Shown here piece after piece: positions 4,472-64,000 of a stretch of 64,000 bases of DNA; the stretch's first letter is position 1, and each line of letters begins with the position of its first letter. This DNA comes from Streptomyces sp. NBC_01353 (GTDB lineage: Bacteria > Actinomycetota > Actinomycetes > Streptomycetales > Streptomycetaceae), in NCBI RefSeq assembly GCF_036237275.1, contig NZ_CP108352.1, positions 2,976,001 to 3,040,000 of the forward strand. Direction: 5' to 3'. Both the position numbers and the translations under genes were made by a program. The notes beneath the pieces were generated by a model that saw only the letters and a program-made list of their open reading frames with translations, made no database searches and was not told the DNA's origin.

Positions 4472-6012
4472 CGCCGTTCCTTCCGGTCGGTGGGGAGGGA
4501 GACCAGGCCGGCCTTGGCGAGCCGGCGGACCGCGAGCGTCTCGGTGCGCTGCCGCAACCGGGCGGCGACCGCGTCGGCGTCGACCCCCAGGCAGCGGACG
4601 GTGAAGGAGCTCAGCGCCTCCAGGTAGTCGGCCTCCAGGACCTCCTCGTCCAGGCCGGTGGACCGGCCGTCCTCGATCAGGACCCGGCCGGCGACGATCA
4701 CGGTGTCCACGTCCATGGAGCCGCCCAGGGCGAGGAAGCCCTCCAGCGGGCGGGGGTTGAGGAGGTAGCGCCAGTCGTCGGCCTTCACCAGCAGCAGGTC
4801 GGCCTGCTTGCCCGGTTCGAGGCTGCCGATCCGCTCGCCCTGGTCGAGCCCTCGGGCGGGCAGTCGGGTCGCCATCGCCAGCGCGTCGGTGGGCAGCACC
4901 TCGGTGGGGTCGGCGTACATCTCGTTGTAGATCTGCCACGCCACCCGCATGGACTCGGCCATCCCGCCGATCGGCATGGCGGCGCCGTCGGTGGAGAGCG
5001 AGACGTCGAGTCCGGCCCGGCGGAACTCCGGGAACAGCCGGGTCTCGGTGAGGGAGGCCTCCCCCGCGGGCCCGTACTTGGCCGGCGAGTGGCTGATGTG
5101 CGCGCCCGCTCCGATCAGCAGCGCCCGTTCGCCCGCGTCGGCGAAGGCGCAGTGCACCGCCATGAACCGGTCGGAGAGCAGCCCGAGGTCGGCGAACCGC
5201 CGCACCGGGGTGGAGCCGTGGTACGCGAGCATCACGTCGGCCTCGTTGCGCAGCGCGCCGACGTGGGCGGCGAAAGGAACGTCGAAGCGGGCCACCAACT
5301 CGGCGAATCCGGCGCCGAGTTCGTCGGTCATGTTGGTGCCGTAGACGGCGGTCGGCCAGGCCCGGACGAGCCCCTCGGGGTCGTTCGCGCAGTCGATCAG
5401 GAGCTTCTCGATGCGCTGGAGTTCGTCGTCGGCGTCGCGGGTGCGGCGGAAGCGGGTGTCCCCGGGGGCGCACACGGCGTCCGAGGCCCAGGTGCTCACC
5501 GTGAGGCGCATCCCGAGGTCGCGGGCGGCGCGGGCGAGCGCCTCCGGCTTGTTGAGGGAGCCGACGTCGCCCAGGGCGGTCACGCCGGAGCGCAGCTGGG
5601 TCCACATCGAGTACCGGGCGATGGCGAGCGCCTCGTCGGGCGTGAGGCGGTCCACCTGTCCGTGGAAGGAGTCGAAGATGACGGAGATCTGCGGGACGTC
5701 GCCGCCGAGCGCCATGAACACGGGCTTGTCGTCGCGGTCGGAGGCGTCACGCAGCGCACCCTTGAAGGGGAAGCGCATCGCGAACATCTCGTGCCAGTGC
5801 GGGTTGACGAAGCCGGGCAGGATCATCCGGCCCCGGGCGTCGATGGTCCGCAGCGCGGCGCGCTGTTCGGGCCGGACGAAGGCCTCGACCTCGGCGACCG
5901 GGCCGACCGCGATCACCACGCCGTCCTCGGCGAGGACAGCGCCGTCGGGGACGACGTTGTCGCCGGCGTCCGCCGGGTAGAGGCAGCCGCCCTTGACCAG
6001 CAGGGCGCTCAT
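4468..6012 (-). CDS. Amidohydrolase-superfamily protein, probable benzoxazole cyclase
   Basis: A 514-residue member of the metal-dependent amidohydrolase family (TrzA/AtzA/SsnA branch). Metal-ligand motifs are visible in order: His72/His74 in NPHWH, the His of AAHVGAL, the His of AVHCAF and the Asp of LSTDGAAM, with a beta-sandwich around the barrel. In benzoxazole clusters (nataxazole, A33853, caboxamycin) an enzyme of this family closes the oxazole ring from an aryl ester/amide intermediate instead of hydrolysing an amide, and the gene set here argues for that role. The start used is ATG 6012, which shares one base with the carrier-protein stop (TGATG); an in-frame GTG precedes it directly. 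A hydrolase acting on an unrelated substrate is possible but unlikely in this operon. Confidence 0.8.
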   Translation of the reverse strand: MSALLVKGGCLYPADAGDNVVPDGAVLAEDGVVIAVGPVAEVEAFVRPEQRAALRTIDARGRMILPGFVNPHWHEMFAMRFPFKGALRDASDRDDKPVFMALGGDVPQISVIFDSFHGQVDRLTPDEALAIARYSMWTQLRSGVTALGDVGSLNKPEALARAARDLGMRLTVSTWASDAVCAPGDTRFRRTRDADDELQRIEKLLIDCANDPEGLVRAWPTAVYGTNMTDELGAGFAELVARFDVPFAAHVGALRNEADVMLAYHGSTPVRRFADLGLLSDRFMAVHCAFADAGERALLIGAGAHISHSPAKYGPAGEASLTETRLFPEFRRAGLDVSLSTDGAAMPIGGMAESMRVAWQIYNEMYADPTEVLPTDALAMATRLPARGLDQGERIGSLEPGKQADLLLVKADDWRYLLNPRPLEGFLALGGSMDVDTVIVAGRVLIEDGRSTGLDEEVLEADYLEALSSFTVRCLGVDADAVAARLRQRTETLAVRRLAKAGLVSLPTDRKERR

Positions 6013-6302
6013 CACGCCACCTCCGCGGTCCGGGCGTTCCAGGCGGCGGTGAGGTGGCGGTGCCAGTCGTCGAGGGTGGGGGCGGCGGCGAGTTCGGCGA
6101 ACTCGGCGGGCAGGCCCTGCCTGCGCCAGCGGGTGACGAGGCGCATCATCTCCAGTGAGCCGAGTCCGAGGTGGACGAGATGGGCGTCACCAGGGATGGC
6201 GTCGGGCTGTGCACCGAGGACGGCGGCCACCTCCTGGCGGAGTTCGACGGCGGAGAGCGGTGAGGTGCGCGGTGCGGTACGTGCGGCACGTATGCCGGCC
6301 AT
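6012..6302 (-). CDS. Free-standing aryl/acyl carrier protein
   Basis: A 96-residue protein with one carrier-protein domain. The 4-prime-phosphopantetheine attachment site is Ser49 in HLGLGSLEMM, where the aryl-carrier pattern LGxxS is clear. It resembles the ArCP tail of EntB/DhbB, here encoded separately because the isochorismatase is a stand-alone PhzD type. It should accept an activated aryl acid from the ligase encoded 6 bases upstream and present it to a KAS III-like acyltransferase. Its short, Arg/Thr-rich first 15 residues are not conserved, so the exact start is less certain. Confidence 0.85.
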   Translation of the reverse strand: MAGIRAARTAPRTSPLSAVELRQEVAAVLGAQPDAIPGDAHLVHLGLGSLEMMRLVTRWRRQGLPAEFAELAAAPTLDDWHRHLTAAWNARTAEVA

Positions 6303-6308
6303 GGCGGT

Positions 6309-8062
<1,754 letters not shown>

Positions 8063-8063
<1 letters not shown>

Positions 8064-9151
8064 CACTGGTCCTCCTCCTGAGGTGCGGTGCCGTGGTCGG
8101 TGCCGGCGGCCGGCAGATAGGGCGCGGTGATCTCGACGACCGCGCAGGCGACCTCCATGCCGGGGCCCGCCGCGAGCAGCAGCACGCGGTCGCCGGGGGC
8201 GACCTCGCCCCGCGTCCAGAGACGTTCGAGCCCGATGAACGGGTCGGCGGCGCCGACGTGGCCGATGTGTCGGGTGAACTCCCAGGTGCCGTGGGCGGCT
8301 TCGACGTCCAGCGGGTCGAGGTAGATGGTGTGCAGGGCGCCGTCGGAGTAGCCGGTGTGGCAGATCCGCGCCACCTTCTCCAGGTCGGTGTCGGCGTCCA
8401 CCAGGGCGCGGTCCACCGCCTCGGCGACCACGTCGCCGAGGTGCACCTTCGGCGGCGCCGCGCCCTCGGCCCACCGCCGGCGCCAGTGGTCGCTGCGCTC
8501 CTCGAAGTTGAGCGAGCGGCCGACGGTGATGCCGGGCGGGAAGAGCTCTTCTCCGCCGCGGTGCAGCTCCTCCATCGACGGGGCGGAGACCGAGCCGACC
8601 GACAGCAGCCGGGCGAAGCCGTCCCGCCGGGAGACCACGGCGGCCGCGCCGCCGTCGGCGAGGAGGAACAACCGGGAGGAGTTCCAGCGGTCCACCAGGG
8701 GTGCGGAGAAGTTGTCGGCCGCGGTGAGCAGGACGGCGTCCTTGCCGTCGTCGGCGGTCAGCCGGTGGGCGGCCATCTCCAGGGCGGTCAGCATGCCGAG
8801 GCAGCCGGGGCCGACCTGGGCCGCGCCGACCGGCCGGTCCAGGGTGCGGTGCAGGACGTAGTGCGGGGCGGACCAGCCGTCGGGTCCCTGGTGGTAGGTG
8901 GCGCAGTGCAGCAGCGCGCCGTAGTCGTCGGGGGTGAGCCCGGTCCGGCCCGCCCTGCGCAGCGCGGTGCGGGCGGCCCGTACGGCCATCTCGGGGGCCG
9001 GGAGCTCCCCGGCCACGCGGACGGCGAGCATCCCGGACGCCTTGCGGTCGGCCTCCTCGTACCAGCCGTGGCCCACCGCGTCGGCGGTCGTCACCTCGTC
9101 CGGCAGCCAGCTGCCGACTCCGGCGAGGTAGAGCTCGGCGGCGACCCTCAT
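8063..9151 (-). CDS. KAS III-like acyltransferase, probable ester/amide-forming enzyme of the benzoxazole operon
   Basis: A 362-residue thiolase-fold protein. The nucleophile is Cys117 in VGPGCLGM, the mid-protein His is His265 in ICHTGYSD, and the usual Asn position carries His298 in IGHVGAAD. The Cys-His-His set departs from the FabH Cys-His-Asn triad and suggests acyl transfer to a hydroxyl or amine instead of decarboxylative condensation. A33853 and nataxazole clusters also encode a KAS III-like protein beside the aryl ligase and amidohydrolase, where it joins two aryl units. It is coupled on both sides (ATGA to the salicylate synthase, TGATG to the ligase). The left-edge KAS III has a different active site, so the two are not redundant copies. 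Confidence 0.82.
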
Positions 9152-10506
9152 CGCGTACCGCCCGCGCCCGCCCCCGCGCCGGCCGGCACCAGGAAGCGCG
9201 CGACGCTGTCGAGCTTCTCGCAGGTCTCCTCGAACTCGCGCTCCGGCGTGGAGTGTCCGACGATGCCCGCGCCGGCCCGCAGCCAGGTGCGCCCGTCCTT
9301 GCGGTAGGCGCTGCGCAGCACCAGGGCCGCGTCCATCGCCCCGGTGTGGTCGACGGTGAGGACCGCGCCGCTGTAGAGGCCGCGGGACTCCGGCTCGTGC
9401 CGGCGTATGGAGTCGTACGCGGCCGACTTCGGCACCCCGGAGGCGGTGACGGCGGGGAAGACGGCGCCGAAGGCGTCCCAGGCCTCCCGGCCGGGGGCGA
9501 GCTTGCCGGCGACGCGGGAGGCGAGGTGCTGGACGCTGCCGCGCTCGCGGATGGCCATGAACTCAGGCACCTCGACCGAGCCCTCGACACAGACGTCGAC
9601 CAGTTCGTCGGCGCCGACCTTGACCGAGATGGCGTGCTCGTAGACCTCCTTGGGGGAGCCGAACAGGTCCGCGCGCAGGCCCTCGTCGGTGAGCAGGTCG
9701 CCGGTGAGGGCGCGGGTGCCGGCCAGCGGCTGGCTGACGACCCGGCCGTCCTCGGAGACCTGGACGACGATCTCCGGGCTGAAGCCGATGGCCTCGGTGC
9801 CGCCCAGGTTGAGCATGAAGGAGCGGGCGGGGTTGTTGCCGCGGCGGCCGGCCACGTAGGTGCCGGTCAGGTCGACGTCGTCGTCGACCTCGACGACGCG
9901 GGAGAGGATCACCTTGTGCAGCTGTCCGGCGTTGATCTCGTCGACGGCGAGCCTCACCGCCTCGCGGTACTGGGCGCCGCCGGTGGCGTGCACGTCCAGC
10001 GGGCGGGGCTGCCCGTCCAGGGCCGGGCCGGGGTTGGCGACGGTGGTGAGGAGCGCGTCGAGGGTGGCCTGGTCGGAGGCGCGCAGCAGGGCGTGACCGG
10101 CCTCGAAGCGGACCTCGGCGCGCGGCACGACGAGGTGCATCAGCCGGCCGTCGCCGATTCCGTCCAGGTTGCCGTCCTTGGCGTAGGAGAGCTCGAAGGT
10201 GGCCCAGCCGTAGGCCCGCCAGTACGGCACGGTGACGGTGTCGAGCAGCTCGGACACCAGGCGCAGGGGCTGGTCGTTCCAGGCGCGGAAGGTGTCCGGG
10301 ACGTCCTCCTGGGTCAGCCGGGCGCCGGAGCGGTCCAGCGTCAGCTCGGCGCGGACGCCGCCCGCGTAGGACCAGCTGCCACCGTTCTCGTAGACGACGT
10401 ACGACTCGTGCAGACCCGAGTCGGCGAGGCGGGCCGCGACCAGCAGCGGGTCCTCGGTGAGCTGGAGCTGGGTCTCGAAGTAGTGGCGCGAGGCGATGGG
10501 GCTCAT
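9148..10506 (-). CDS. Salicylate synthase (MbtI/Irp9-type)
   Basis: A 452-residue chorismate-utilising enzyme with the length and motifs of bifunctional isochorismate synthase-pyruvate lyases such as MbtI, YbtS and Irp9. HKVILSR carries the catalytic Lys region, IGFSPEIVV and SVKVGADEL follow, and the C-terminal GAGIVGHS and EFEETCEKL segments bind Mg and chorismate. Expected product: salicylate plus pyruvate. It is the first gene of the operon and has a GGAGGAGG-like ribosome site directly upstream of ATG 10506. A 29-base inverted repeat lies in its leader. The gene supplies one aryl unit of the proposed benzoxazole. A plain isochorismate synthase is the alternative. Confidence 0.88.
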   Translation of the reverse strand: MSPIASRHYFETQLQLTEDPLLVAARLADSGLHESYVVYENGGSWSYAGGVRAELTLDRSGARLTQEDVPDTFRAWNDQPLRLVSELLDTVTVPYWRAYGWATFELSYAKDGNLDGIGDGRLMHLVVPRAEVRFEAGHALLRASDQATLDALLTTVANPGPALDGQPRPLDVHATGGAQYREAVRLAVDEINAGQLHKVILSRVVEVDDDVDLTGTYVAGRRGNNPARSFMLNLGGTEAIGFSPEIVVQVSEDGRVVSQPLAGTRALTGDLLTDEGLRADLFGSPKEVYEHAISVKVGADELVDVCVEGSVEVPEFMAIRERGSVQHLASRVAGKLAPGREAWDAFGAVFPAVTASGVPKSAAYDSIRRHEPESRGLYSGAVLTVDHTGAMDAALVLRSAYRKDGRTWLRAGAGIVGHSTPEREFEETCEKLDSVARFLVPAGAGAGAGGTR

Positions 10507-17118: not shown

Positions 17119-17901
17119 GTGAGACCGCGCGGACGGCCGCTCGTCGCCGCCGTGGCCCTGGCCGCGGCGGCGCCGCTCGTGCTCTCCGGCTGCGGCGGCG
17201 TGGGTGGCCTGGAGAGCGCCGGCCCCACGCCCACCGCCGTCGGCCCGGTCCGCCTCTGGCCCGACCTGCCGCCGGCGAGCGAGCCGCCCCTCGACTACGG
17301 CGAGACCGACACCCAGAGCGTCCCCGGCATCAAGGCCCCCGACAACGACGTCCACCGCGTCGACGCCGTGGCCGTGGTCCGGGCCGAGGTGAACGCCCAC
17401 CCCGACACGTACTCCGGCGCCGACGGCATGTACGAGGAGACGGCCCGGCAGATCGGCCGGTGCACCACCGAGCCCGCGAAGTGCCCGGTCATGCAGCCGT
17501 ACTACCGCGACCTGACCGGCAACGGCCGCGACGAGCTGATCGTCGGCATCCGGATGCCCGATCAGCAGGTCGGCCTGCGGGTCTATCTCGCCGAGAACGA
17601 CGGCCTCACCCGGGTCATGTCCACCATCGACCAGGTCATCAGCGTGGAGCTGGCGGGCCGGGACGTGATCGTACGGGCCGCCTCGGCCGGCATTCCCGGG
17701 TACGAGTACCGCACCGCGTGGTCCTGGGACGAGCAGCAGCGCGCGATGCTGCCGACCCGGGACGAGATCGTGCGCGTGAAACCGCCGGTCCCGTCGCCCT
17801 CCCCGACCCCCGAGCCCCGTTTCGTGGAGCCCACGGCACCGCCCTCCCCCTCGCCGACCCCGTCCCCCTCGGCCGACGTGCTCTCCGGAGAGCCCCGGTG
17901 A
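17119..17901 (+). CDS. Secreted lipoprotein upstream of an orphan sensor kinase
   Basis: A 260-residue protein with a basic N-terminus, a hydrophobic stretch and the lipobox LSGC (Cys about residue 26), so it is a predicted lipoprotein facing outside. The body is of no known family; the tail (about 220-250) is a Pro/Ser/Thr spacer of the PSPSPTP kind. The start is GTG 17119 after GAGGAG. The stop overlaps the kinase GTG start by 4 bases, indicating co-translation. The arrangement recalls CseA, the lipoprotein that dampens CseC/CseB signalling in Streptomyces, and the segment PVRLWPDLPP is reminiscent of CseA, but no response regulator gene accompanies it. Confidence 0.72.
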   Translation: MRPRGRPLVAAVALAAAAPLVLSGCGGVGGLESAGPTPTAVGPVRLWPDLPPASEPPLDYGETDTQSVPGIKAPDNDVHRVDAVAVVRAEVNAHPDTYSGADGMYEETARQIGRCTTEPAKCPVMQPYYRDLTGNGRDELIVGIRMPDQQVGLRVYLAENDGLTRVMSTIDQVISVELAGRDVIVRAASAGIPGYEYRTAWSWDEQQRAMLPTRDEIVRVKPPVPSPSPTPEPRFVEPTAPPSPSPTPSPSADVLSGEPR

Positions 17902-19232
17902 CCCGGCGCGCACGGCTGCGCCTCCCTGCCTGGACGGCGACCCTCACCTGGAAGTCCACGGTCTTCATCACGGTCATGTGCTGCGCCCTGGCGGCGCTGC
18001 TCGGCGTACTCGTCCATGTCTCGGTGGCGGGACAGACCGTGAACGACTCCCGCGAGAGGGCGCTGACCCGGCTCACCGCCGCCACCCGCGCCTACGAGGC
18101 GGGCGAACCGCTCCCCCGGTTCTCCGGTGTCGACCCGGAAGGTCTGCCGGGCTCGCTGCGCGCCCTCGCCCTTCGGGGCGAGCGCGGCACGGTGGTCGTG
18201 GAGCACGAGGGCCGGCCGACGATGTGGGCGGCGGGCCCGGCGGACGGCCGAGCCCTCGCCGTGCAGCTGGACTACACGACGAGCGCGGAGACCATCGACG
18301 GGCTCGACCGCTCGATCCTGGCATCCTCGGTCCTGGCGATCGGGGCCACGCTGCTCCTGGGTGCCTTCGCCGTCACCCGGGTCACCCGGCGGCTGCACCT
18401 GACCGCCCAGGTCGCCCGGCGGATCAGCGCGGGCGACCTCGACGCGCGGGTCAACGACCCCCGCACGAAGGACCCTTCGCGCCCCCAGGACGAGGTGGCC
18501 ACGGTCTCCGGGGCGCTCGACACGATGGCCTCCTCGCTCCAGCGCAAGCTGCAGACCGAGCAGCGCTTCACCGCCGATGTCGCGCACGAGCTGCGCACCC
18601 CGCTGACCGGTCTGTCGGCCGCCGCCGAACTGCTGCCGGAGGGGCGGCCCTCGGAGCTCGTACGGGACCGGGTGAAGACGATGCGCGACCTGACCGAGGA
18701 CCTGCTGGAGATCTCGCGGCTCGACGCCCGCAACGAGACGGTGGATCTGGCGGTCCACGACCTCGGCCCGATCGCGCGACGGGTGAGCGAAGCGAAATGG
18801 GGGTCCCCCCATGCCGACAAGCCATGGGGGAGCGCGTCGGGGACGGAGACCGAGGTGCGGATCGTCCGGGACGCCACGGTCGAGACGGACAGGCGGCGCC
18901 TGGAGCGGGTCCTCGGCAATCTCGTCGCCAACGCGCACAAGCACGGCGCGCCACCGGTGGTCCTGACCGTGGACGGCGCGGTCGTCACGGTGCGGGACCA
19001 CGGTCCCGGATACCCGGAGTACCTGCTGGCGACCGGGCCGCAGCGGTTCCGTACGGAGAGCGGCGGCAAGGGGCACGGGCTCGGGCTCACGATCGCGGTG
19101 GGGCAGGCCGAAGTGATCGGCGCGGAACTGGTCTTCGGCCAGGCGCCGGACGACGGGGGTGGGGCGCTGGCGCGGCTGACCCTGCCGGAGTACGTGTCCT
19201 TCGACTCGGTGGAGGCCGAGCCGGAGCCCTGA
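17898..19232 (+). CDS. Membrane sensor histidine kinase, orphan
   Basis: A 444-residue histidine kinase. Transmembrane segments lie near 22-45 and 138-158, with an extracytoplasmic sensor of about 90 residues between them. A HAMP domain follows (RRISAGDLDARV), then HisKA with phospho-acceptor His230 in VAHELRTPLTG, and HATPase_c with N (NLVANAHKHG), G1 (VRDHGPGYP) and G2 (GKGHGLGL) boxes. It starts at GTG inside the lipoprotein stop. No response regulator is adjacent, unlike cseB-cseC. A 17-residue in-frame insertion (VSEAKWGSPH... region, about 297-315) comes from a palindromic mini-element and sits between the HisKA and ATPase domains. Confidence 0.88.
   Translation: MTRRARLRLPAWTATLTWKSTVFITVMCCALAALLGVLVHVSVAGQTVNDSRERALTRLTAATRAYEAGEPLPRFSGVDPEGLPGSLRALALRGERGTVVVEHEGRPTMWAAGPADGRALAVQLDYTTSAETIDGLDRSILASSVLAIGATLLLGAFAVTRVTRRLHLTAQVARRISAGDLDARVNDPRTKDPSRPQDEVATVSGALDTMASSLQRKLQTEQRFTADVAHELRTPLTGLSAAAELLPEGRPSELVRDRVKTMRDLTEDLLEISRLDARNETVDLAVHDLGPIARRVSEAKWGSPHADKPWGSASGTETEVRIVRDATVETDRRRLERVLGNLVANAHKHGAPPVVLTVDGAVVTVRDHGPGYPEYLLATGPQRFRTESGGKGHGLGLTIAVGQAEVIGAELVFGQAPDDGGGALARLTLPEYVSFDSVEAEPEP
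18785..18837. repeat. Palindromic mini-element, copy 1, in frame within the kinase gene
   Basis: It begins GAGCGAAGCGAAATGGGG and contains alternating inverted blocks ATGGGGG / CCCCCAT / CATGGGGG around the loop CCGACAAGC, so two overlapping hairpins can form. The same lead sequence GAGCGAAGCGA(A/G)ATGGGG begins the second copy at 49699. The insertion keeps the reading frame and adds a Trp/Pro/Ser-rich peptide that homologous kinases would not be expected to carry. I take it as a non-autonomous repeat family. Confidence 0.65.
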
Positions 19233-56199: not shown

Positions 56200-56219
56200 C
56201 CCGCTGTACCGGTACGCAC

Positions 56220-56255
56220 GGAGGCCCGGCACCCCGCGAGGGGTGCCGGGCCTCC
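56220..56255. terminator. Strong bidirectional terminator after kgd
   Basis: GGAGGCCCGGCACCCC pairs perfectly with its 16-base complement (56240-56255) over the tetraloop GCGA. It lies 20 bases after the kgd stop and 13 bases before the stop of the convergent minus-strand operon. Confidence 0.85.
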
Positions 56256-56268
56256 GGCGTGTCCGGGG

Positions 56269-59200
56269 TCAGCCGAGGTTGGCCTCGAAGTCCCAGTAGG
56301 GGCGGTTGCGCTGGCGCGCCGACAGGGTGTGCGGATGCTGGGCGCCCAGGGTCCTGGTGAGGGTGAGCAGGGCGTCCTCCTCCAGCTTCCCCGCCTCCTC
56401 GACCTCGCGCAGACCGCGCAGGTCGGTGGCGAGCGCCACCTGGCAGGACAGGGTGAGCGGGTGCTCGTTGCCGAGCGTGTGCCGGGCGCGGCGCAGGGTC
56501 TCCCGGCTGAGTTCGGCGGCGTCGGCGACCCGTCCGTTGAAGTTGCGGGCGGCGGTGGCGTTGAGGGCGCAGCCGAGGGCCCAGGGGTGATCGGGGCCGA
56601 GGGAGGCGGTCAGACCGGCGAGCGCGCCCTCCAGCATGGCCAGGGCGTCGGCGCGTTCGCCGGAGGCCTGCATGACGAGCGCGGTGTTGGCGAGGACGCC
56701 GGTGGCGACGGGGTGGGCGGGGCCGAGGAGCGTACGGTAGCCGGCCTCGGCCTCGCTGCTGAGCTCCCTGGCATGGTCCAGGTCGCCGTGCTCGCGCAGG
56801 TAGTTGGCGTAGTTGTTGATGGAGGAGAGCGTGGAGTAGTGGGCGCGGCCGTGCACCTGCTCCTGCTGTTCGAGCAGGCTGGCCATGGTGGCTCCGAGGT
56901 CCTGCTGGAAGCCGCCCTCACGGCGGCGGCAGAGCGCGAGCTGGGCGCGGGCGTAGAGGGTCTGCAGGTGCTGCGGCCCGAGGACCTGGACGTGCACCCG
57001 TACGTTGGCCTCCTGGCGGGCGAGCGCCTCCCGGTAGTTGCCGAGCAGGCGCAGGTCCTGGGCGACGGCGTTGCTGGAGTTGAGGGTGTGGGCGTGCCGG
57101 GTGCGGAGCACGTTCTCGCTGCGGGCCAGCGAGGCGACGTCCTGGTCGTACGCCTCCCGGTACCGGCCGAGCATGCGCAGCACGACGCCGAGGTTGTGAC
57201 CGGCGACGAGGGTGAGGAACTCGTTCTCGCCGAGGAGCCGTTGGGCCTCCATGTACGCCTCGCGCTGGATCCGTTCCGACTCCTGGTACTGGCCGAGGAA
57301 GCGCAGGTCGCTGGCGATGGAGACGGCGGACCGGAGGGAGCCCAGCTCGTCCCTGGTCTCGGCGGCGTTCAGCCGGTCACGGACGGCGATGTCGAGTTCG
57401 TACGCGTCCCGGAACCGGCCGAAGGCGCGCAGGATGTAGCTCTCCTGCGTGGTGAGTTCCAGCATCTCGGGGCTGACCGGGTCCATGAACCTGGACCAGT
57501 GGTCCCGGATCTTCTCCGCCAGGCGGATTCCGGCTCGGTGCTCGGAGCTGCGGAAGCAGTAGCGCAGGCAGTTGAGCACGGCGGTCTGGACGCGCGGGTT
57601 CCGGCTGGCGAGGGCGCCGGACGGCTCCAGGTGCGGCAGGAGTTCGGCATACCGGGGCCAGTGCCGGCTGTCCATGGGGTTGCCGGGGTCGGCCTCGGCG
57701 AGGAGGGTACGGACGGCCTTGCGGTGGGCCTCGCGGTGTTCGCCGTCGGTGAGCCGGGCGACGATGTCGTGGACGAGCCGGTGCATGTGCACGGACTCCT
57801 GGTGCGGCCCCACCTCGACGTTGGTGACCGGCCCGCGTGACTCGCGGCTGAGCACCGAGTAATTGACAAGGGTGTCCAGGGCGCGGGTCCAGGCGGGCAG
57901 GTCGGTGACCATCCAGCGGAGGTCCTCGGGGAGGTCCGCCTGCGGAAAGGCGCGCACGATACCGAGGGGGATGCGGCCGGGGGCGAAGGAGGCACACAGG
58001 CTGAGGACGTCGATGGCCTGCGGCTGGGCGCGTCGGAGCCGGTTGATCAGTATCGACCAGGAGGTGAGGGAGGCGTTGGGGAAGCCGTCGCCGGAGGGCT
58101 CGTCGACGGTGGAGAGCCGTCCGTCGCGGACCATGCGCAGATACTCGGGAACCTCCATGCCGGACTCGCCGAGCCAGGCGGCGGCCTGGACGAGCGGCAG
58201 GGGCACGTCGCCGAACTCGGCGGCGACCTCGTCGGCCTCGGGCGCGGAGATGTGCGGGGCGCGGCGCATGAGGTAGGCGGTGGACTCGGCACGGTCGAAG
58301 CTGGGGACTTCGAGGATGTCGGTGTGGTCGCCCCAGCCGCGGTTGCGGGAGGTGATGAGCACATGGCCGGGGCCCTGGGGCAGCAGCACGTTGGCGCCGT
58401 CGGTGTCGTCCCAGCCGTCGAAGATGATCAGCCAGCGGCTGTGCGGGTCGCCGCGGCGCAGGGCTTCGCGGACGGCGCGGATGCGCTCACCGGGGTCGTT
58501 GCCGGTGGGCAGACGCAGTTCGGTGGCGAGTTCGCCGAAGCGGTCGCGCTGGATGTTGCGGTCGTCGGAGTTGACCCACCAGATGACGTCGTAGTCGGGG
58601 CTGAAGCGGTGGGCGTACTCGGCGGCGATCTGGGTCTTGCCGATGCCGGACATGCCGAGCAGGGTGCAGGCGGCGCTGCCGCGCTCGGCGTCCATCAGCC
58701 GTTCCTGTAGCTCGGTGAGCAGGTCGTCTCGGCCGGTGAAGCGGGGGTTGCGGCGCGGGACCTCGCCCCAGATGTCGGGCGGCGTCTCCGGGTAGCGCAC
58801 CAGCGCCCCGGCCGGGACGCGGCGGCCCGCCGAGCGGCGCGGTTCGATGCCGAGCCTGCTGAGCAGCCGCGCCTCCGCCTCCTCCTCGCCGACGCCCCAG
58901 AGGCTGACCGGTTCGAGGACGGCGGTGGCCGGGAGGAGCGTGCGGTTGGTCAGGTTGACGGCGGCGAACCGTTCGGCGTTGGCGGCGACGAAGCCGCGCA
59001 GCACGTCGTTCCATTCGCCGGCGGCGCGGGGGCCGAGCTGGAAGAACCAGTCGTCGAGGACGAGCAGGACCTGCCCGCGGGCGAGCAGCAGGTCGCCGAG
59101 GGAGTCCTCCAGCGCCGACTCGCGCGGGGGGTCCCAGCGCAGGGCCGTGGTGCGCACCCCGTGGGCTTCGAGGCGCTGGCCGATCCAGGCCGACCACGGG

Positions 59201-59295
59201 CGGTGGTAGCCGGGGAAGACCACGAGGACATGCCCAGGCGTGGCCCTTCCTCCGTACTCCGCCGCTGCGCCGCCACCCGACCGCTGTTCCGCCAT
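56269..59295 (-). CDS. TIR-like / NB-ARC / TPR protein of the FxsT type
   Basis: A 1008-residue multidomain protein. Residues 20-150 form a divergent TIR-like domain (VLVVFPGYHRPWSAWIG, then GEWNDVL with Glu94 at the usual catalytic-Glu site). Residues about 190-480 are an NB-ARC ATPase: P-loop Lys220 in GMSGIGKTQ, Walker B LIIFDGWDD, sensor ITSRNRG, and a GLPL-like DVPLPLVQ. From about 600 to the end there are ten or more TPRs (NNYANYLREHGDLDHAREL type). The protein ends YWDFEANLG, like FxSxx-COOH-system FxsT proteins. ATG 59295 fits GGGAG nine bases before it. It is the last gene of the right-hand operon. The role is inferred to be signal-gated regulation or defence. Confidence 0.85.
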   Translation of the reverse strand: MAEQRSGGGAAAEYGGRATPGHVLVVFPGYHRPWSAWIGQRLEAHGVRTTALRWDPPRESALEDSLGDLLLARGQVLLVLDDWFFQLGPRAAGEWNDVLRGFVAANAERFAAVNLTNRTLLPATAVLEPVSLWGVGEEEAEARLLSRLGIEPRRSAGRRVPAGALVRYPETPPDIWGEVPRRNPRFTGRDDLLTELQERLMDAERGSAACTLLGMSGIGKTQIAAEYAHRFSPDYDVIWWVNSDDRNIQRDRFGELATELRLPTGNDPGERIRAVREALRRGDPHSRWLIIFDGWDDTDGANVLLPQGPGHVLITSRNRGWGDHTDILEVPSFDRAESTAYLMRRAPHISAPEADEVAAEFGDVPLPLVQAAAWLGESGMEVPEYLRMVRDGRLSTVDEPSGDGFPNASLTSWSILINRLRRAQPQAIDVLSLCASFAPGRIPLGIVRAFPQADLPEDLRWMVTDLPAWTRALDTLVNYSVLSRESRGPVTNVEVGPHQESVHMHRLVHDIVARLTDGEHREAHRKAVRTLLAEADPGNPMDSRHWPRYAELLPHLEPSGALASRNPRVQTAVLNCLRYCFRSSEHRAGIRLAEKIRDHWSRFMDPVSPEMLELTTQESYILRAFGRFRDAYELDIAVRDRLNAAETRDELGSLRSAVSIASDLRFLGQYQESERIQREAYMEAQRLLGENEFLTLVAGHNLGVVLRMLGRYREAYDQDVASLARSENVLRTRHAHTLNSSNAVAQDLRLLGNYREALARQEANVRVHVQVLGPQHLQTLYARAQLALCRRREGGFQQDLGATMASLLEQQEQVHGRAHYSTLSSINNYANYLREHGDLDHARELSSEAEAGYRTLLGPAHPVATGVLANTALVMQASGERADALAMLEGALAGLTASLGPDHPWALGCALNATAARNFNGRVADAAELSRETLRRARHTLGNEHPLTLSCQVALATDLRGLREVEEAGKLEEDALLTLTRTLGAQHPHTLSARQRNRPYWDFEANLG

Positions 59296-59353
59296 CTGTA
59301 CGTCTCCCGTCCCGCTGCCACGCAACGCAGTGTCATGCGCCCTTGGCACAGTG

Positions 59354-60634
59354 TTACCCAGCCGCCCTCGGGGCCGCGCCCAGGCTCGCGTGGTGCAGCC
59401 TCATTTGATGGACGAACTCCCGCCCCTCACTGGTCAGTTCATCTGATTCAAGCAGGATCGCCAGAGCCTCATCCACCTGATCGTGGAAACGGTCGAACTG
59501 CTGCCCCGCACTGGTCCGCCAGGGTGTGGACACCCCCTCGGCCGTGGCCGCGCGCCGCCACAGATCGGTCAGGGCCAGATGGGCGTAGGCCCCGTGGAGC
59601 ACGCCCGCGATGGGCCTTGGATCGGACCGCCAGCCGACCCGGTGCACTGCGGCCCGTCCCGGCAGGTACAGCGGTACGAACTCGTGCAGCGTGGCCAGTT
59701 TGCTGTGGTGGACCTCGTGGACCAGAGTCTCGGCCATGTCCTGCGCCCCGGAGGGCAGCGAGGTCAGCACGGCGCCGGGAGCGACGCTCAGCGTGGCCCC
59801 CGAGGAGCCCGGGCCATGAGGGACCAGCGGCACGAGCGCGTGGACCGCGCGGCGCACCTCGGCCGCCCTGGCCGGGTCGGTGCGCACCAGGAGGTCCTGA
59901 GCGGATCGCCAACAGGCGGACCAGGCCGCCCGGTCGGTCACCGCGTGGTCCGATCCCGCACGGGCCGGGCTGCCGATACCGCCGGGCGGTACCCGGTAGG
60001 GGTCGAGGTCGTCGAGGCGGGCGGCCGAGCCGCTCAGGACGCGCAGCCCGGTCCAGCCGGGCCCCCATCCGGTCAGCGCGCCGGTCCGCCGGTCGGAGAG
60101 CACCAGGACGACGGGCGGCCGGTGCGTCAGGCCCTCCGAACGGATCCGTACGGTACGGGACCGGGCCCGGATCCGGACGCGACCGGCGCCTCCCGCCCGC
60201 AGCCGTCCGACACCGGGCAGCGAGAGGAACCCGCCCGGGGCGTCGAGGGTGACGTCGAGGGGCGAGCCGGACCGCAGGGCGGCCGTGACGGCGAGGATGT
60301 CGAGCCGGGCGAGATGCCGGACGAGGCCCGGCCCGAGCGGCTCCATGAGCGCGGTGGCCAGCCAGGTGCCGGTCGTGGGGTAGTCGAGCAGGTCGCGGAC
60401 CACATCGGGGCGGCGTTGTTCGACCCGCTCCAGCAGCTGCCAGGATTCGGCGAAGCGTTGGAACACGGCCGCGTCGACGGCCTCACGGTGCCGATGGACA
60501 CGCACCGACAGGGCCTTGAGCAGCACCAGGCGACGGGCGTGCAGGGTGGAGCGCAGCAGGGAGGCGCTACGGGTCGCGGAGCGGGTGCGGGCCAGCTCCG
60601 CGAAGGCCGCGGCGTGCGGCGGGGCGAGGGTCAT
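59354..60634 (-). CDS. HExxH-type putative peptide beta-hydroxylase (RiPP modification)
   Basis: A 426-residue protein with the motif VHEVHHSKL (His306-Glu307, His310), and a later His in HGAYAHLALTDLW. This matches the HExxH-motif family that travels with, or is fused to, FxSxx-COOH peptide maturases and is regarded as an Fe(II)/2-oxoglutarate-type peptide beta-hydroxylase, not a zinc peptidase. The N-terminal two-thirds is helical with a central beta-rich part (about 165-200) typical of the family. It follows the small peptide gene by 75 bases and precedes the FxsT-type gene by 58. GGGGAGG precedes ATG 60634. Confidence 0.78.
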   Translation of the reverse strand: MTLAPPHAAAFAELARTRSATRSASLLRSTLHARRLVLLKALSVRVHRHREAVDAAVFQRFAESWQLLERVEQRRPDVVRDLLDYPTTGTWLATALMEPLGPGLVRHLARLDILAVTAALRSGSPLDVTLDAPGGFLSLPGVGRLRAGGAGRVRIRARSRTVRIRSEGLTHRPPVVLVLSDRRTGALTGWGPGWTGLRVLSGSAARLDDLDPYRVPPGGIGSPARAGSDHAVTDRAAWSACWRSAQDLLVRTDPARAAEVRRAVHALVPLVPHGPGSSGATLSVAPGAVLTSLPSGAQDMAETLVHEVHHSKLATLHEFVPLYLPGRAAVHRVGWRSDPRPIAGVLHGAYAHLALTDLWRRAATAEGVSTPWRTSAGQQFDRFHDQVDEALAILLESDELTSEGREFVHQMRLHHASLGAAPRAAG

Positions 60635-60709
60635 CCTCGCCTCCCCGGCCGGACAGCGGACGCTCGTCCGCTTCTGACCGGAAACAAGCGGTGGAGACGG
60701 CCTGGGCGG

Positions 60710-60931
60710 TCAATGACCGCCGCCCGATGTGCAGTTGTCGACGAGTGCGCCCTCGTTCCAGGACTCGGCGAGATCCCGGGGCTGCCACAGGACCCGCTCG
60801 ACGGCCACCGCCAGCTCCGGATCGTCCATGAAGCGCAGTGTGCGCAGGTCGACGGCCGCGAGATCGGGCAGGTGCGGTGGGCGGCCCTCGCCCTTGTCGA
60901 CGCCGGCAACCCACTCCATGTGCTCCAACAC
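60710..60931 (-). CDS. Putative RiPP precursor peptide with FxsA-like leader
   Basis: A 73-residue peptide. The middle (LPDLAAVDLRTLRFMDD, then AVAVERVLW) has the pattern of FxsA leader peptides (DLSxVPLxxL ... ALxRVL), which bind the maturation enzymes. The C-terminal 20 residues (ESWNEGALVDNCTSGGGH) differ from the FxSxx end of classical FxsA and are rich in Asn, Asp, Trp and Gly, suitable targets for beta-hydroxylation. GTG 60931 has a perfect GGGGAGGAG site 6 bases away; ATG 60919 is the alternative. It lies between the SAV_2336-type gene and the HExxH gene on the same strand. Confidence 0.7.
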   Translation of the reverse strand: MLEHMEWVAGVDKGEGRPPHLPDLAAVDLRTLRFMDDPELAVAVERVLWQPRDLAESWNEGALVDNCTSGGGH

Positions 60932-61081
60932 GCTCGGCTCCTCCCCACCGACGCCAGTCCCCCACGGTCGTAGCGGCGGAGCGGTTCTTCCCGACGCCAG
61001 GAAGTCAGAAACCCGTTCGACTCAACTGCGCCCATTCACGCCCCCGTTATCCAGCCGTTCTCGTAGCGCCTCTCCGGCGGT

Positions 61082-64000
61082 CTAGTCGGCCGTGTCGCTC
61101 CACGCCCACCACGGCGGCGCGATCCGGCGGCGGTCCTCGCCGGAGAGCCGGGCCTGCGGCGGACCCTGATCCCTGCTCACCTCCGCGAGGAGCGCCCTGG
61201 TCCGTTCGACGTCGCTCCAGTCCACCTCCACCAGCGCGGCCGTCAGCCGCTGCCACTGCTCGGCCGACGCCCGAAGCACACTCCTCGCCCCGCCCGTGCG
61301 GCCCATGAGCCACAGGACCGCCGCCTGCGCGTGCAACGCACGCGCGCCGGTGACCGTGCCGGGCGTGTCTCCATGGGCGGACCGGGCGTCCTCCCAGGCC
61401 CGTTCGTAGGCCGTGAGCGCGTCACCGAGGACACCGTCCCTGGCCGACTCGCTCAACTCCAGTCTCACCCGTCCCAGTTGCAGCCACACCTCGGAGCGCA
61501 GGGCGATGTCCCGGGTGGTACGGGCGGCCTGTTCCAGGAGGTGGCGGCTCTCGTACAGGTCGGGCAGGAACCCGGCCCGATGGAAGCGCAGAGCCAGCAC
61601 GCTGCCGATCAGGATCCGGGCCCGGGCCCGGGCCGGCGCCCCGGCCGGAAGGCGGGTGAGGGCCTCGCGCAGCACGCTCTCGGCCCGGTCGACGGGGGCC
61701 TGACCGGGGGTGGCCGCGGCGCGGCGCATCAGGGACTCGCCCCAGGTCATCAGGATCCGTCCGCGCTGCTCGCTGTCGGCGGGGGCGAGCAGGGTGGCCT
61801 CCTCGTAGGCGGCGTCCGCGGCCGGTCCGTCGCCGGCCGTGTCGTACAGCCGGGCGCGCGCCCGCGTCCAGCGCAGCCGCAGGGCCGAGCCGTCGCCGAG
61901 GAGCTCTCCCGCCCGGTCGAGTACGGGGGTGATCTCGGCCGGGTCTGCGCCGGCCAGGTGCAGGGCGTCGGCCAGGTCGAGGAGCGCGGGGCCGCTCTCC
62001 CGGAGGGAGAGCGCGGTGGTGAGCTCGGCCGCCGCCGCCGGTCCGTCGCCGCGCGCGAGGAGCAGCCGTCCGCGGCGCAGGTGGAGGGTGTGGTGGTGGG
62101 CCTCGGGCCAGTCCGGCACGTCCCCCGTCAGCGCGGCGAGGGCCTCGTCCAGGTGCCGGGCGTCGGCGGTGTGGCGCCACAACCCGTGGTGAGCCACGGC
62201 CTGTTCGAGCCGGGCCTCGGCCCACTGCGCACCGCCCTGCCCGGCGAGTTCCGCGGCCCGTTCCAGTTCGGTCAGCGCGCGGGTGAGCAGTTCGTGGCGG
62301 CGTTCGGTGCCCTGGACGGCGGCGGTGCCGGACTCCGCGTACAGCACGCGTCCGAGCAGGATCCCGGCCTCGACGGGATGGTCCGACAGTGCGGCCTCGG
62401 CCTGTTGGCGGGCCCGGATCAGCAGCGAGGGGTCGGACTGGCTGCGCCACTGCTCGAGCAGCCGTCGCGCCGCGGCGAGCGGGTCGGGGGTGATCAGGTC
62501 GGGGTGGTAGAAGCGGAGCACGCGCGCGGGGATACGGGCGAAGAGTTCGGGCTCCGTGCCCACCGGGCCTGTGGGTTCGTCGGTCTCCTCCACCGTGCCG
62601 GGCACGGCTGCCGGGTCGTCGGTGGGCCGGCCGGCCAGTCCGGCCGCCGCGAGCGCCGGGAAGTTGCGCATCCCCTGGCCGAAATTGCGCTCCACGTACT
62701 CGGAGCAGTGCTTGAGCACGAGCGCGGCGGCGCTGCGGTCCAGGGAGCCGAGGAGGTGCTGCTGGACGCCGGGCGGATAGCTGAAGCACGGATAGGGGGA
62801 AGGGCCGGGCAGTTGCCGCAGCAGACCGCTGAGCAGGACCTCTGCGAGCTCCATGGGGCCGGTGTCGGGCAGCATCGCGCGCTGCACGAGCTGCATGACG
62901 GGAAGGGCGAGCGGGGCGGCGGCGAGATGGACGGCGAGCCGCACGGCGCCGGGCGAGGCACCGGCCGTGAAGGCGCGCAGCAGTTCCTCGTCGCTGCGCG
63001 GGACACGGGCCCGGCCGGGGCCGGCGTCCGGCGCGGCCGCGCGCAGCACCTCGGGGGCGATGCCGGCCGCCCAGCCCCGGATCGCACCGGAGCCGTGGCC
63101 GGCATGGAGCCGCGCCCAGGAGGCGAACGCCTCGGGCGTGGGCGTGAGCACGGGCACCGCGCGCGTGTCGGCGGCGACCGGCTCCCAGGACTCCTCGTCG
63201 GGCTGGAAGCCGGTGTGTCCGCCGGGTGCCGAAGGTCGCAGCAACAGGCCCGGCTCGACTGACAGGGCGGTACGCGGCCAGAGCCTCGGGGGCAGCGGCT
63301 GGACGAGTGCGAGCGGGGACTGCCGGGGCCACTGGTGGATGAGTCGCTGCGCGGCGCCGCGCTGCCAGAGCGGGCCGACGCAGTCGCTGACGATCAGGGT
63401 GAGCCGGCGGCCGGTGGGGTCGTGGAGCTGGTCGCCCGGGCGCAGCCGGGGCCGCCCGTCGGCCCCCGAGGTGGTGGTGACCCGCGGCGGGCCCTCGCCC
63501 GTGTCGTACAGCCGGTGGACCCGGACGTCGCGGAAGGCGCCGGACTGCTGGCAGGCCTGGCGCAGCTCCTCCACCATCCGGCTCCAGACGACCATGGCGG
63601 GGCCGGTGTCCATGAGGAGCTGGATGTCGGGGCGGCGGCCGGCGGCGGGGCGTAGGACGGGGGTGAGCATGCCTGCGGCGGCGCTGCGTTCGGCCGTGGC
63701 CTCCTCGTCGAGGAGACCCTCGCCGGGCCGGAGCGGGAAGTGCGCGTAGTGCCGTAGCGGGCGGAGTGCCTTCTGGAGTCCGAGGAGGCCGGGCAGGGCG
63801 TTGGCGCCGGGCGCGCGGACGGGCAGATTCCTGCTCCGGTCCGTACGACGACGGAACGCCTCGCCGTCGCCGGGGTCCCGGGGGCGGGCATACAGCGAGA
63901 GGCCTACGGTGTCGGAGGCACGGACGGGCCGCGTTCCGCCGTCGGCGCCGGTGCCGGGCTCCCGGTCCCCTTCGTCACCGATGCCCGTACCGGGAGGGTT
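61082..64000 (-). CDS. SAV_2336-type protein (vWA-like plus TPR), N-terminus beyond window
   Basis: The frame is open from 64000 to the stop at 61082, so 972 residues are visible and the start lies outside. About 75-115 residues into the visible part is LRPLRHYAHFPLRPGE, then LLMDTGPAMVVWSRMVEEL, a vWA/Rossmann-like opening with a degenerate metal site, and LTLIVSDCVGPLW. A helical middle region and a TPR-like C-terminal 450 residues follow (for example RHLDEALAALTGDV, LHLRRGRLLLARGDG). The domain set is known from Streptomyces SAV_2336-family proteins, which usually neighbour AAA/MoxR ATPases and FxsT proteins in signalling or conflict loci. It probably heads, or sits early in, the right-hand operon. 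Confidence 0.75.
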   Translation of the reverse strand, partial: NPPGTGIGDEGDREPGTGADGGTRPVRASDTVGLSLYARPRDPGDGEAFRRRTDRSRNLPVRAPGANALPGLLGLQKALRPLRHYAHFPLRPGEGLLDEEATAERSAAAGMLTPVLRPAAGRRPDIQLLMDTGPAMVVWSRMVEELRQACQQSGAFRDVRVHRLYDTGEGPPRVTTTSGADGRPRLRPGDQLHDPTGRRLTLIVSDCVGPLWQRGAAQRLIHQWPRQSPLALVQPLPPRLWPRTALSVEPGLLLRPSAPGGHTGFQPDEESWEPVAADTRAVPVLTPTPEAFASWARLHAGHGSGAIRGWAAGIAPEVLRAAAPDAGPGRARVPRSDEELLRAFTAGASPGAVRLAVHLAAAPLALPVMQLVQRAMLPDTGPMELAEVLLSGLLRQLPGPSPYPCFSYPPGVQQHLLGSLDRSAAALVLKHCSEYVERNFGQGMRNFPALAAAGLAGRPTDDPAAVPGTVEETDEPTGPVGTEPELFARIPARVLRFYHPDLITPDPLAAARRLLEQWRSQSDPSLLIRARQQAEAALSDHPVEAGILLGRVLYAESGTAAVQGTERRHELLTRALTELERAAELAGQGGAQWAEARLEQAVAHHGLWRHTADARHLDEALAALTGDVPDWPEAHHHTLHLRRGRLLLARGDGPAAAAELTTALSLRESGPALLDLADALHLAGADPAEITPVLDRAGELLGDGSALRLRWTRARARLYDTAGDGPAADAAYEEATLLAPADSEQRGRILMTWGESLMRRAAATPGQAPVDRAESVLREALTRLPAGAPARARARILIGSVLALRFHRAGFLPDLYESRHLLEQAARTTRDIALRSEVWLQLGRVRLELSESARDGVLGDALTAYERAWEDARSAHGDTPGTVTGARALHAQAAVLWLMGRTGGARSVLRASAEQWQRLTAALVEVDWSDVERTRALLAEVSRDQGPPQARLSGEDRRRIAPPWWAWSDTAD

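Follow-up and report, generated by a model that had tools for sequence, protein, structure and literature searches.

A probable VMAP-ternary conflict operon of Streptomyces sp. NBC_01353 encodes a HExxH enzyme and a peptide with an FxsA-like leader in the absence of FxsB

We analysed a 64,000-nucleotide window of Streptomyces sp. NBC_01353 (positions 2976001-3040000 of contig NZ_CP108352.1; host genome 8.57 Mb), focusing on an operon at its right-hand end that encodes a small peptide, a HExxH enzyme and an NB-ARC protein; sequence beyond position 64000 was examined for the rest of the operon. In agreement with the original prediction made for this DNA, gene calls and family matches place four genes on the minus strand, separated by gaps of 4, 75 and 150 nt. 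The gene at 56269..59349 encodes a protein with TIR-like, NB-ARC (AP-ATPase) and TPR regions, matching NF040586, the FxSxx-COOH system TPR protein family (754.6 bits, cut-off 300), as well as Pfam TIR_2, NB-ARC and TPR; its NB-ARC P-loop, GMSGIGKT, is intact. The gene at 59354..60634 encodes a free-standing member of the alpha-ketoglutarate HExxH-type peptide beta-hydroxylase family, the family that had been predicted (TIGR04267, 144.1 bits, cut-off 40), with the motif HEVHH encoded at 59705..59719. A 73-residue precursor peptide is encoded at 60710..60931, with a GGAGG ribosome site before its GTG start and its Trp58 codon at 60758..60760. The gene at 61082..64240, which the window truncates at 64000, encodes a protein of 1052 amino acids with a vWA-like region and a TPR-like C-terminal part, in which TPR_16 matches only below its cut-off. 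Its predicted membership of the SAV_2336 family holds for the full protein (NF041121, 433.8 bits, cut-off 200).

The operon continues past 64000 on the same strand. The original prediction had advised looking there for an AAA/MoxR ATPase, and a MoxR-type AAA gene indeed lies just beyond. Its product has 335 amino acids, an AAA_5 match over the cut-off (1e-8) and both Walker A and Walker B motifs; bpMoxR and MadB matched only below their cut-offs. Further upstream of the SAV_2336 gene come a protein that carries VMAP-C and Trypsin_2 on one chain, with the trypsin motif GLSGGP intact, and a Trypco1 protein (PF19493, 58.5 bits, cut-off 24.6). The full gene order is Trypco1, trypsin-VMAP, MoxR-type ATPase, SAV_2336-TPR, 73-residue peptide, HExxH and TIR/NB-ARC/TPR, with gaps of 4-150 nt and, for the start chosen here, an overlap of 4 nt between the trypsin and Trypco1 genes. 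Since the DUF6104 gene beyond it points the opposite way, the operon probably begins with Trypco1.

The available text of a 2020 eLife paper (PMC7159879) describes VMAP-ternary systems as a trypsin-VMAP protein, a MoxR ATPase and a vWA component, to which about 20% of actinobacterial VMAP systems add a peptide-processing module with an AP-ATPase/TPR effector. Four peptide types are named there: FxSxx, RxD, acidic and FtsH-associated. FxSxx types have a radical S-adenosylmethionine (SAM)/SPASM gene and a separate TIR-AP-ATPase gene, and RxD and acidic types have the AP-ATPase fused to the vWA protein. An RxD or acidic assignment of our locus was rejected on layout, the AP-ATPase and vWA genes being separate here; this comparison concerns gene layout, not the sequences of those types. 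We consider it reasonably probable, as one joint explanation with the mechanism proposed below, that this operon represents a VMAP-ternary conflict system equipped with a peptide module and a TIR/AP-ATPase/TPR gene, and that its branch is a relative of the FxSxx type but lacks the radical-SAM maturase FxsB and has a different peptide end. PADLOC returned weak matches only, to the trypsin (RT-Protease_XI, 2e-4) and AAA proteins, and none for the other four proteins. In the literature searched, SAV_2336 is not mentioned, FxSxx apparently carries the present meaning only in the eLife paper, and we found no conflict system in which the function of an FxSxx-type peptide had been tested.

Thirty-four loci of this branch, referred to as Trp-type or W-type, were collected: the window locus, four found by HExxH similarity and 29 found by peptide similarity. 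One further peptide match, L072, was excluded because it is an FxSxx locus, and L142 was taken as the same locus as L039 and not counted. All four named HExxH relatives come from Streptomyces. Conservation of the four window genes as a unit, which the original prediction needed, was borne out: six core genes stand in one order and on one strand in 29 of the 29 loci with enough contig, among 34 loci mostly chosen by peptide similarity. The remaining five are on short or cut contigs (L040, L050, L051, L060 and L061). Trp-type loci form one clade on an 86-tip midpoint-rooted tree and occur in 30 of the 246 sampled genomes of the genus (31 peptide matches less L072). When a profile of 14 Trp-type peptides was run against 394 genomes of the class, six strong matches (E 8e-17 or better) all fell within the genus; seven weak ones (E 8e-7 to 6e-5) included two in other genera and two that are precursors of the FxsB loci L131 and L132. 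FxSxx_TPR and HExxH exceed their cut-offs in 225 and 185 of the 246 genomes, respectively, and are so common in the genus that their mere presence says little.

Most of the FxSxx-type loci compared have the same gene order, with FxsB lying between the peptide and HExxH genes. FxsB was found by tblastn in none of the 34 Trp-type loci, the sole match being a 51-residue segment in L058 at E 0.096. The original prediction had offered two ways to account for a window without a radical SAM gene. One, that FxsB lies beyond 64000, failed: it is absent from the locus, and the best match in the host genome scores 29.4 bits against a cut-off of 370. The other, that hydroxylation may be the main modification, fits, because FxsB is missing from the locus and nothing in the genome exceeds the cut-off; the host genome has a single HExxH family gene. 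We infer loss rather than gain of FxsB in this branch. Could an FxsB encoded elsewhere act in trans, making this a normal FxSxx system whose gene has been displaced? FxsB exceeds the cut-off in 7 of 31 whole genomes, that of L072 and six others in which it lies away from the peptide locus, which leaves 6 of the 30 Trp-type genomes with such a gene. However, no FxsB passes the cut-off in the other 24, the host among them, where only a very distant maturase could take this role, and the peptide is without the FxSxx end. We regard a displaced FxsB as very improbable.

A third group of loci has FxsB and no HExxH match (L136, L141, L144, L162, L166, L179, L187, L190 and others), with coverage extending only about 2.5 kb beyond FxsB in the comparison loci from L158 onward. 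Peptides of this group end in YYEDAP or YYEDGPxxxx.

The peptide had been predicted to be FxsA-like, which holds for its leader but not for its C-terminus, where the FxSxx end is absent. A central segment, LPDL-x-x-VDLRTLR-x-x-DDP-x-L-x-x-AV-x-x-VL, resembles the FxsA leader. With the window peptide as query, tblastn finds the FxsA of the FxSxx locus L072 (E 9.0e-4), and the 14-peptide profile recovers two precursors from FxsB loci (E 1.2e-5 and 2.0e-5). The FxsA model TIGR04268 matches the orthologous peptide in six of nine Trp-type genomes at 13.4-27.1 bits, all below the cut-off of 28, and these matches span model positions 1-36 of 44, i.e. the leader without the end. Judged by these similarities, the Trp-type leader is homologous to that of FxsA. 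In FxsB loci, most FxsA peptides terminate in LWGFxNAF-COOH or a similar sequence. The window peptide ends in SWNEGALVDNCTSGGGH, and, as scored by eye, none of the 34 W-type peptides has an FxSxx-COOH end. All 34 share an invariant Trp, and the tail behind it is variable in both length and sequence. The ratio of non-synonymous to synonymous substitution rates (dN/dS) of the peptide gene is 0.21-0.66 in 13 of 14 ortholog pairs, which were hand-chosen and are not independent, and 1.10 in the pair L066-L068. A chance open reading frame (ORF) was rejected on locus conservation, on conservation of the Trp and the leader, and on dN/dS.

The same conservation pattern, a leader-like middle segment with both ends variable apart from the Trp, would also suit an adaptor or inhibitor keeping the NB-ARC or vWA protein inactive, in which case the HExxH enzyme would act on a different protein of the system. 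In FxsB loci, however, comparable leaders precede a conserved C-terminal core, and in both types the precursor gene lies next to a maturase gene; we consider the adaptor unlikely and prefer to read the small protein as a maturase substrate.

Two further observations concern precursor sequences. In one Trp-type subgroup (L041, L042, L054, L055, L057, L059 and L065-L069), a second patch like TFSAGLA stands before the C-terminus. The precursor ORF of L176 contains two tandem leader and core copies (DHPVL...AVY(M/G)D), suggesting a duplicated peptide.

In the HExxH enzyme, HExxHxK[LM] is present in 32 of the 34 W-type loci, and the other two (L051 and L060) are on short contigs. A phmmer search against the PDB returned 22nu/22ob, titled SjiH-Ni (E 7.6e-23), and 8s5f, ChlH (E 3.8e-9). 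In agreement with this sequence search, the top Foldseek match was 22ob (E 1.7e-9, TM-score 0.37), obtained with a model of mean predicted local distance difference test score (pLDDT) 57.2. The literature searched yielded no paper on SjiH. A pattern search located the WRxDxRP stretch of the solved relatives in 30 of 32 Trp-type enzymes, the exceptions being L059 and L071. According to the available text of PMC12636437, HExxH family proteins are alpha-ketoglutarate enzymes that hydroxylate peptides; two of them cut the backbone as well, and ChlH depends on a pre-formed cyclophane. Since the locus studied here has no cyclophane maker, its enzyme, judging from gene content, should act on a linear peptide.

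The HExxH protein was interpreted differently in the available text of PMC7159879, namely as a protease, which here would cut the small protein to release a C-terminal peptide. Its relative PflC does cut the backbone, oxidatively and hydrolytically (PMC12636437, available text), and the variable tails after the Trp are what one would expect of a discarded piece. The family model and the closest solved relatives are nevertheless those of alpha-ketoglutarate HExxH enzymes, and the WRxDxRP stretch of these relatives is retained in nearly all Trp-type members. We rate a protease as rather unlikely and a peptide-modifying alpha-ketoglutarate enzyme as the better reading.

The SAV_2336 protein differs from its FxSxx counterparts at the position of a metal ion-dependent adhesion site (MIDAS)-like motif, and also carries SDCxGPLW. 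This first vWA-type motif reads D-A-S-S-S-M in most FxSxx loci, whereas the window protein has a degenerate D-T-G-P-A-M, encoded at 63593..63610 on the minus strand. We tabulated the motif for 86 loci, comprising 31 of the 34 Trp-type loci and 55 comparison loci; the latter were drawn from 101 loci, of which 93 have FxsB and 66 a SAV_2336 match upstream. The second MIDAS Ser/Thr is kept in all 32 FxSxx-COOH loci and L134, in 5/5 loci with a related type of end, in 10 of 12 YYED types and in L200. Its loss is seen in all four FxsB loci with a peptide extending beyond the motif, in 22 of the 31 Trp-type loci and in two YYED variants whose ends are altered. The first MIDAS Ser is lost in two FxSxx-COOH loci, L184 and L196.

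Eight of the 11 comparison loci absent from the table were recovered: the residue is present in L128 and five YYED loci, lost from L177, matching the similar L170, and present in L178 despite an altered peptide end. The remaining three, L123, L124 and L205, gave no vWA region. Among the three Trp-type loci missing from the table (L040, L050 and L051), L051 was recovered as DTGPAM. These nine recovered rows, most of which agree with the pattern in the table, stand outside the tree and the test.

On a midpoint-rooted tree built without the motif, the losses count by eye as three events, and every one falls in a lineage whose peptide end has changed. Correlated change between motif and peptide end was supported with a likelihood ratio (LR) of 12.44 (p 0.014, 86 tips), or 9.81 (p 0.044) without L170, L176 and L200, for peptide-end classes set by regular expression and partly by eye and for a hypothesis drawn from part of the tested loci. 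A strict rule that a tail means MIDAS loss was rejected: the second Ser/Thr is kept in other Trp-type branches (9 of 31 proteins, some with long tails), and L200 and L178 keep it despite altered peptide ends. The association between MIDAS degeneration and a changed peptide end is thus suggestive. One tentative and rather doubtful extension is that the SAV_2336 vWA region is the receptor of the operon's modified peptide. In FxSxx systems the MIDAS metal would bind the C-terminal carboxylate, and in the present branch recognition would have moved to a hydroxylated residue at the Trp. If so, an AAA/vWA/NLR-type immune switch would be gated by an internal hydroxylated ribosomally synthesised and post-translationally modified peptide (RiPP), with FxsB and HExxH swapped like modules.

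The TIR-like domain of the NB-ARC protein was inspected in an alignment of 37 proteins with the P-loop pattern, taken from 63 loci. In the motif EWNxxLR, at least 90% of these proteins have a Leu four residues after the conserved Trp, the position at which we take the catalytic Glu of NAD-cleaving TIR effectors to lie. As Leu occupies this place here, the alignment makes it more likely that the TIR-like domain is a contact domain.

At its 3' end, the operon is bounded by a self-complementary, terminator-like hairpin (56214..56260, no strand assigned) between it and the convergent kgd gene. The hairpin has 21 pairs and one bulge, and the surrounding 80-nt stretch folds at -63.8 kcal/mol (z -6.95). 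The original prediction of a strong terminator after kgd therefore stands as regards the strong hairpin, but there is no T-run and a consensus terminator scan did not report it. A promoter scan found none. Beyond the operon lies a glycoside hydrolase family 5 ORF at 17260-17940 of the extended stretch (add 54000 for window coordinates), which matches Cellulase (35.2 bits) and Glyco_hydro_5_C (27.9 bits), with the endoglycoceramidase model far below its cut-off. The same genome holds a second pair of MoxR- and SAV_2336-type genes (L228, about 5684-10319 of the stretch 273000-291000), with an open frame of 1240 residues and the motif LLVDDGVSM; tblastn over the 18 kb around it found no relative of the peptide, HExxH, FxsB, VMAP or FxsT.

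Joining a VMAP-ternary branch with a hydroxylated-peptide mechanism gives what we hold to be the best explanation of the locus as a whole, and probably the right one. The conserved leader would bring the peptide to the HExxH enzyme, which would hydroxylate a residue at the invariant Trp or cut the chain oxidatively at that residue. Once finished, the peptide would remain intracellular and serve the vWA-TPR and NB-ARC-TPR proteins as ligand or guard state. A trigger would cause MoxR to remodel the complex and the trypsin domain of the VMAP protein to release an effector by cleavage, which would stop either the cell or the invader. Family scans of the operon proteins gave no match to transporter families, which leans towards an intracellular role, and the intact GLSGGP and Walker motifs keep proteolysis and ATP-driven remodelling possible.

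Several observations weigh against this explanation. TIGR04268 missed the window peptide and its orthologs in G015 and G041, and the same search scored unrelated places at 20-25 bits, so that most single matches to this model are within noise. The window peptide alone matches nothing in NCBIfam or Pfam. Two of the hidden Markov models included FxsA sequences and for this reason cannot prove leader homology. The substrate must differ from that of ChlH, as the locus cannot make a cyclophane. Finally, the vWA fold of SAV_2336 found no support in an AlphaFold model made with five sequences (mean pLDDT 35.5, too poor to be of use); a Pfam search of six stretches up to E 10 gave only VWA_CoxE, at E 0.03 for one of them, and a PDB profile search for vWA returned nothing below E 1.8. 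The motif and the description in the available text of PMC7159879 suggest the vWA identity, with no fold match to add to them.

In this operon, a bacterial protein related to the immune switches of animals and plants stands beside a small peptide and an enzyme that probably hydroxylates peptides. A hydroxylase-only branch beside FxsB-only and both-enzyme branches makes the effect of each modification separable, and the locus provides a substrate with which to study a free-standing HExxH enzyme that has no cyclophane to depend on. Should the MIDAS link prove right, the receptor of the peptide would be identified, and a RiPP role in immune-like systems would become testable.

The class to which the operon belongs is already published (PMC7159879); relative to the available text of that paper, the branch without a radical SAM gene and with a changed peptide end is a new variant, its Trp-type peptide not being among the peptide types printed there (the paper's source data were not compared). 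The FxSxx-type VMAP system described there has the same components in the same order: trypsin-VMAP, MoxR, vWA plus TPR, a small peptide, HExxH and a separate downstream TIR-AP-ATPase-TPR gene. It differs in having the radical SAM/SPASM protein FxsB, in its FxSxx end, which an invariant Trp and a variable tail replace here, and in its MIDAS motif, which is degenerate in most members of our branch. RxD and acidic types share the VMAP core, a peptide and a HExxH gene, radical SAM being tied to the FxSxx type in the available text; they have a fused AP-ATPase-vWA protein in place of the separate TIR-AP-ATPase gene. FxsB-only VMAP loci with YYED-type peptides (L136, L141, L144 and others) share MoxR, SAV_2336 and a similar leader with our branch and are its mirror case, with FxsB kept and HExxH not found, except in the YYED-type L185, which has a HExxH match. 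With ChlBH/ChlH, SjiH and PflC, the enzyme shares family and motifs. PflC, however, sits in another kind of cluster (PMC12636437, available text), whereas the enzyme studied here stands free in a conflict operon.
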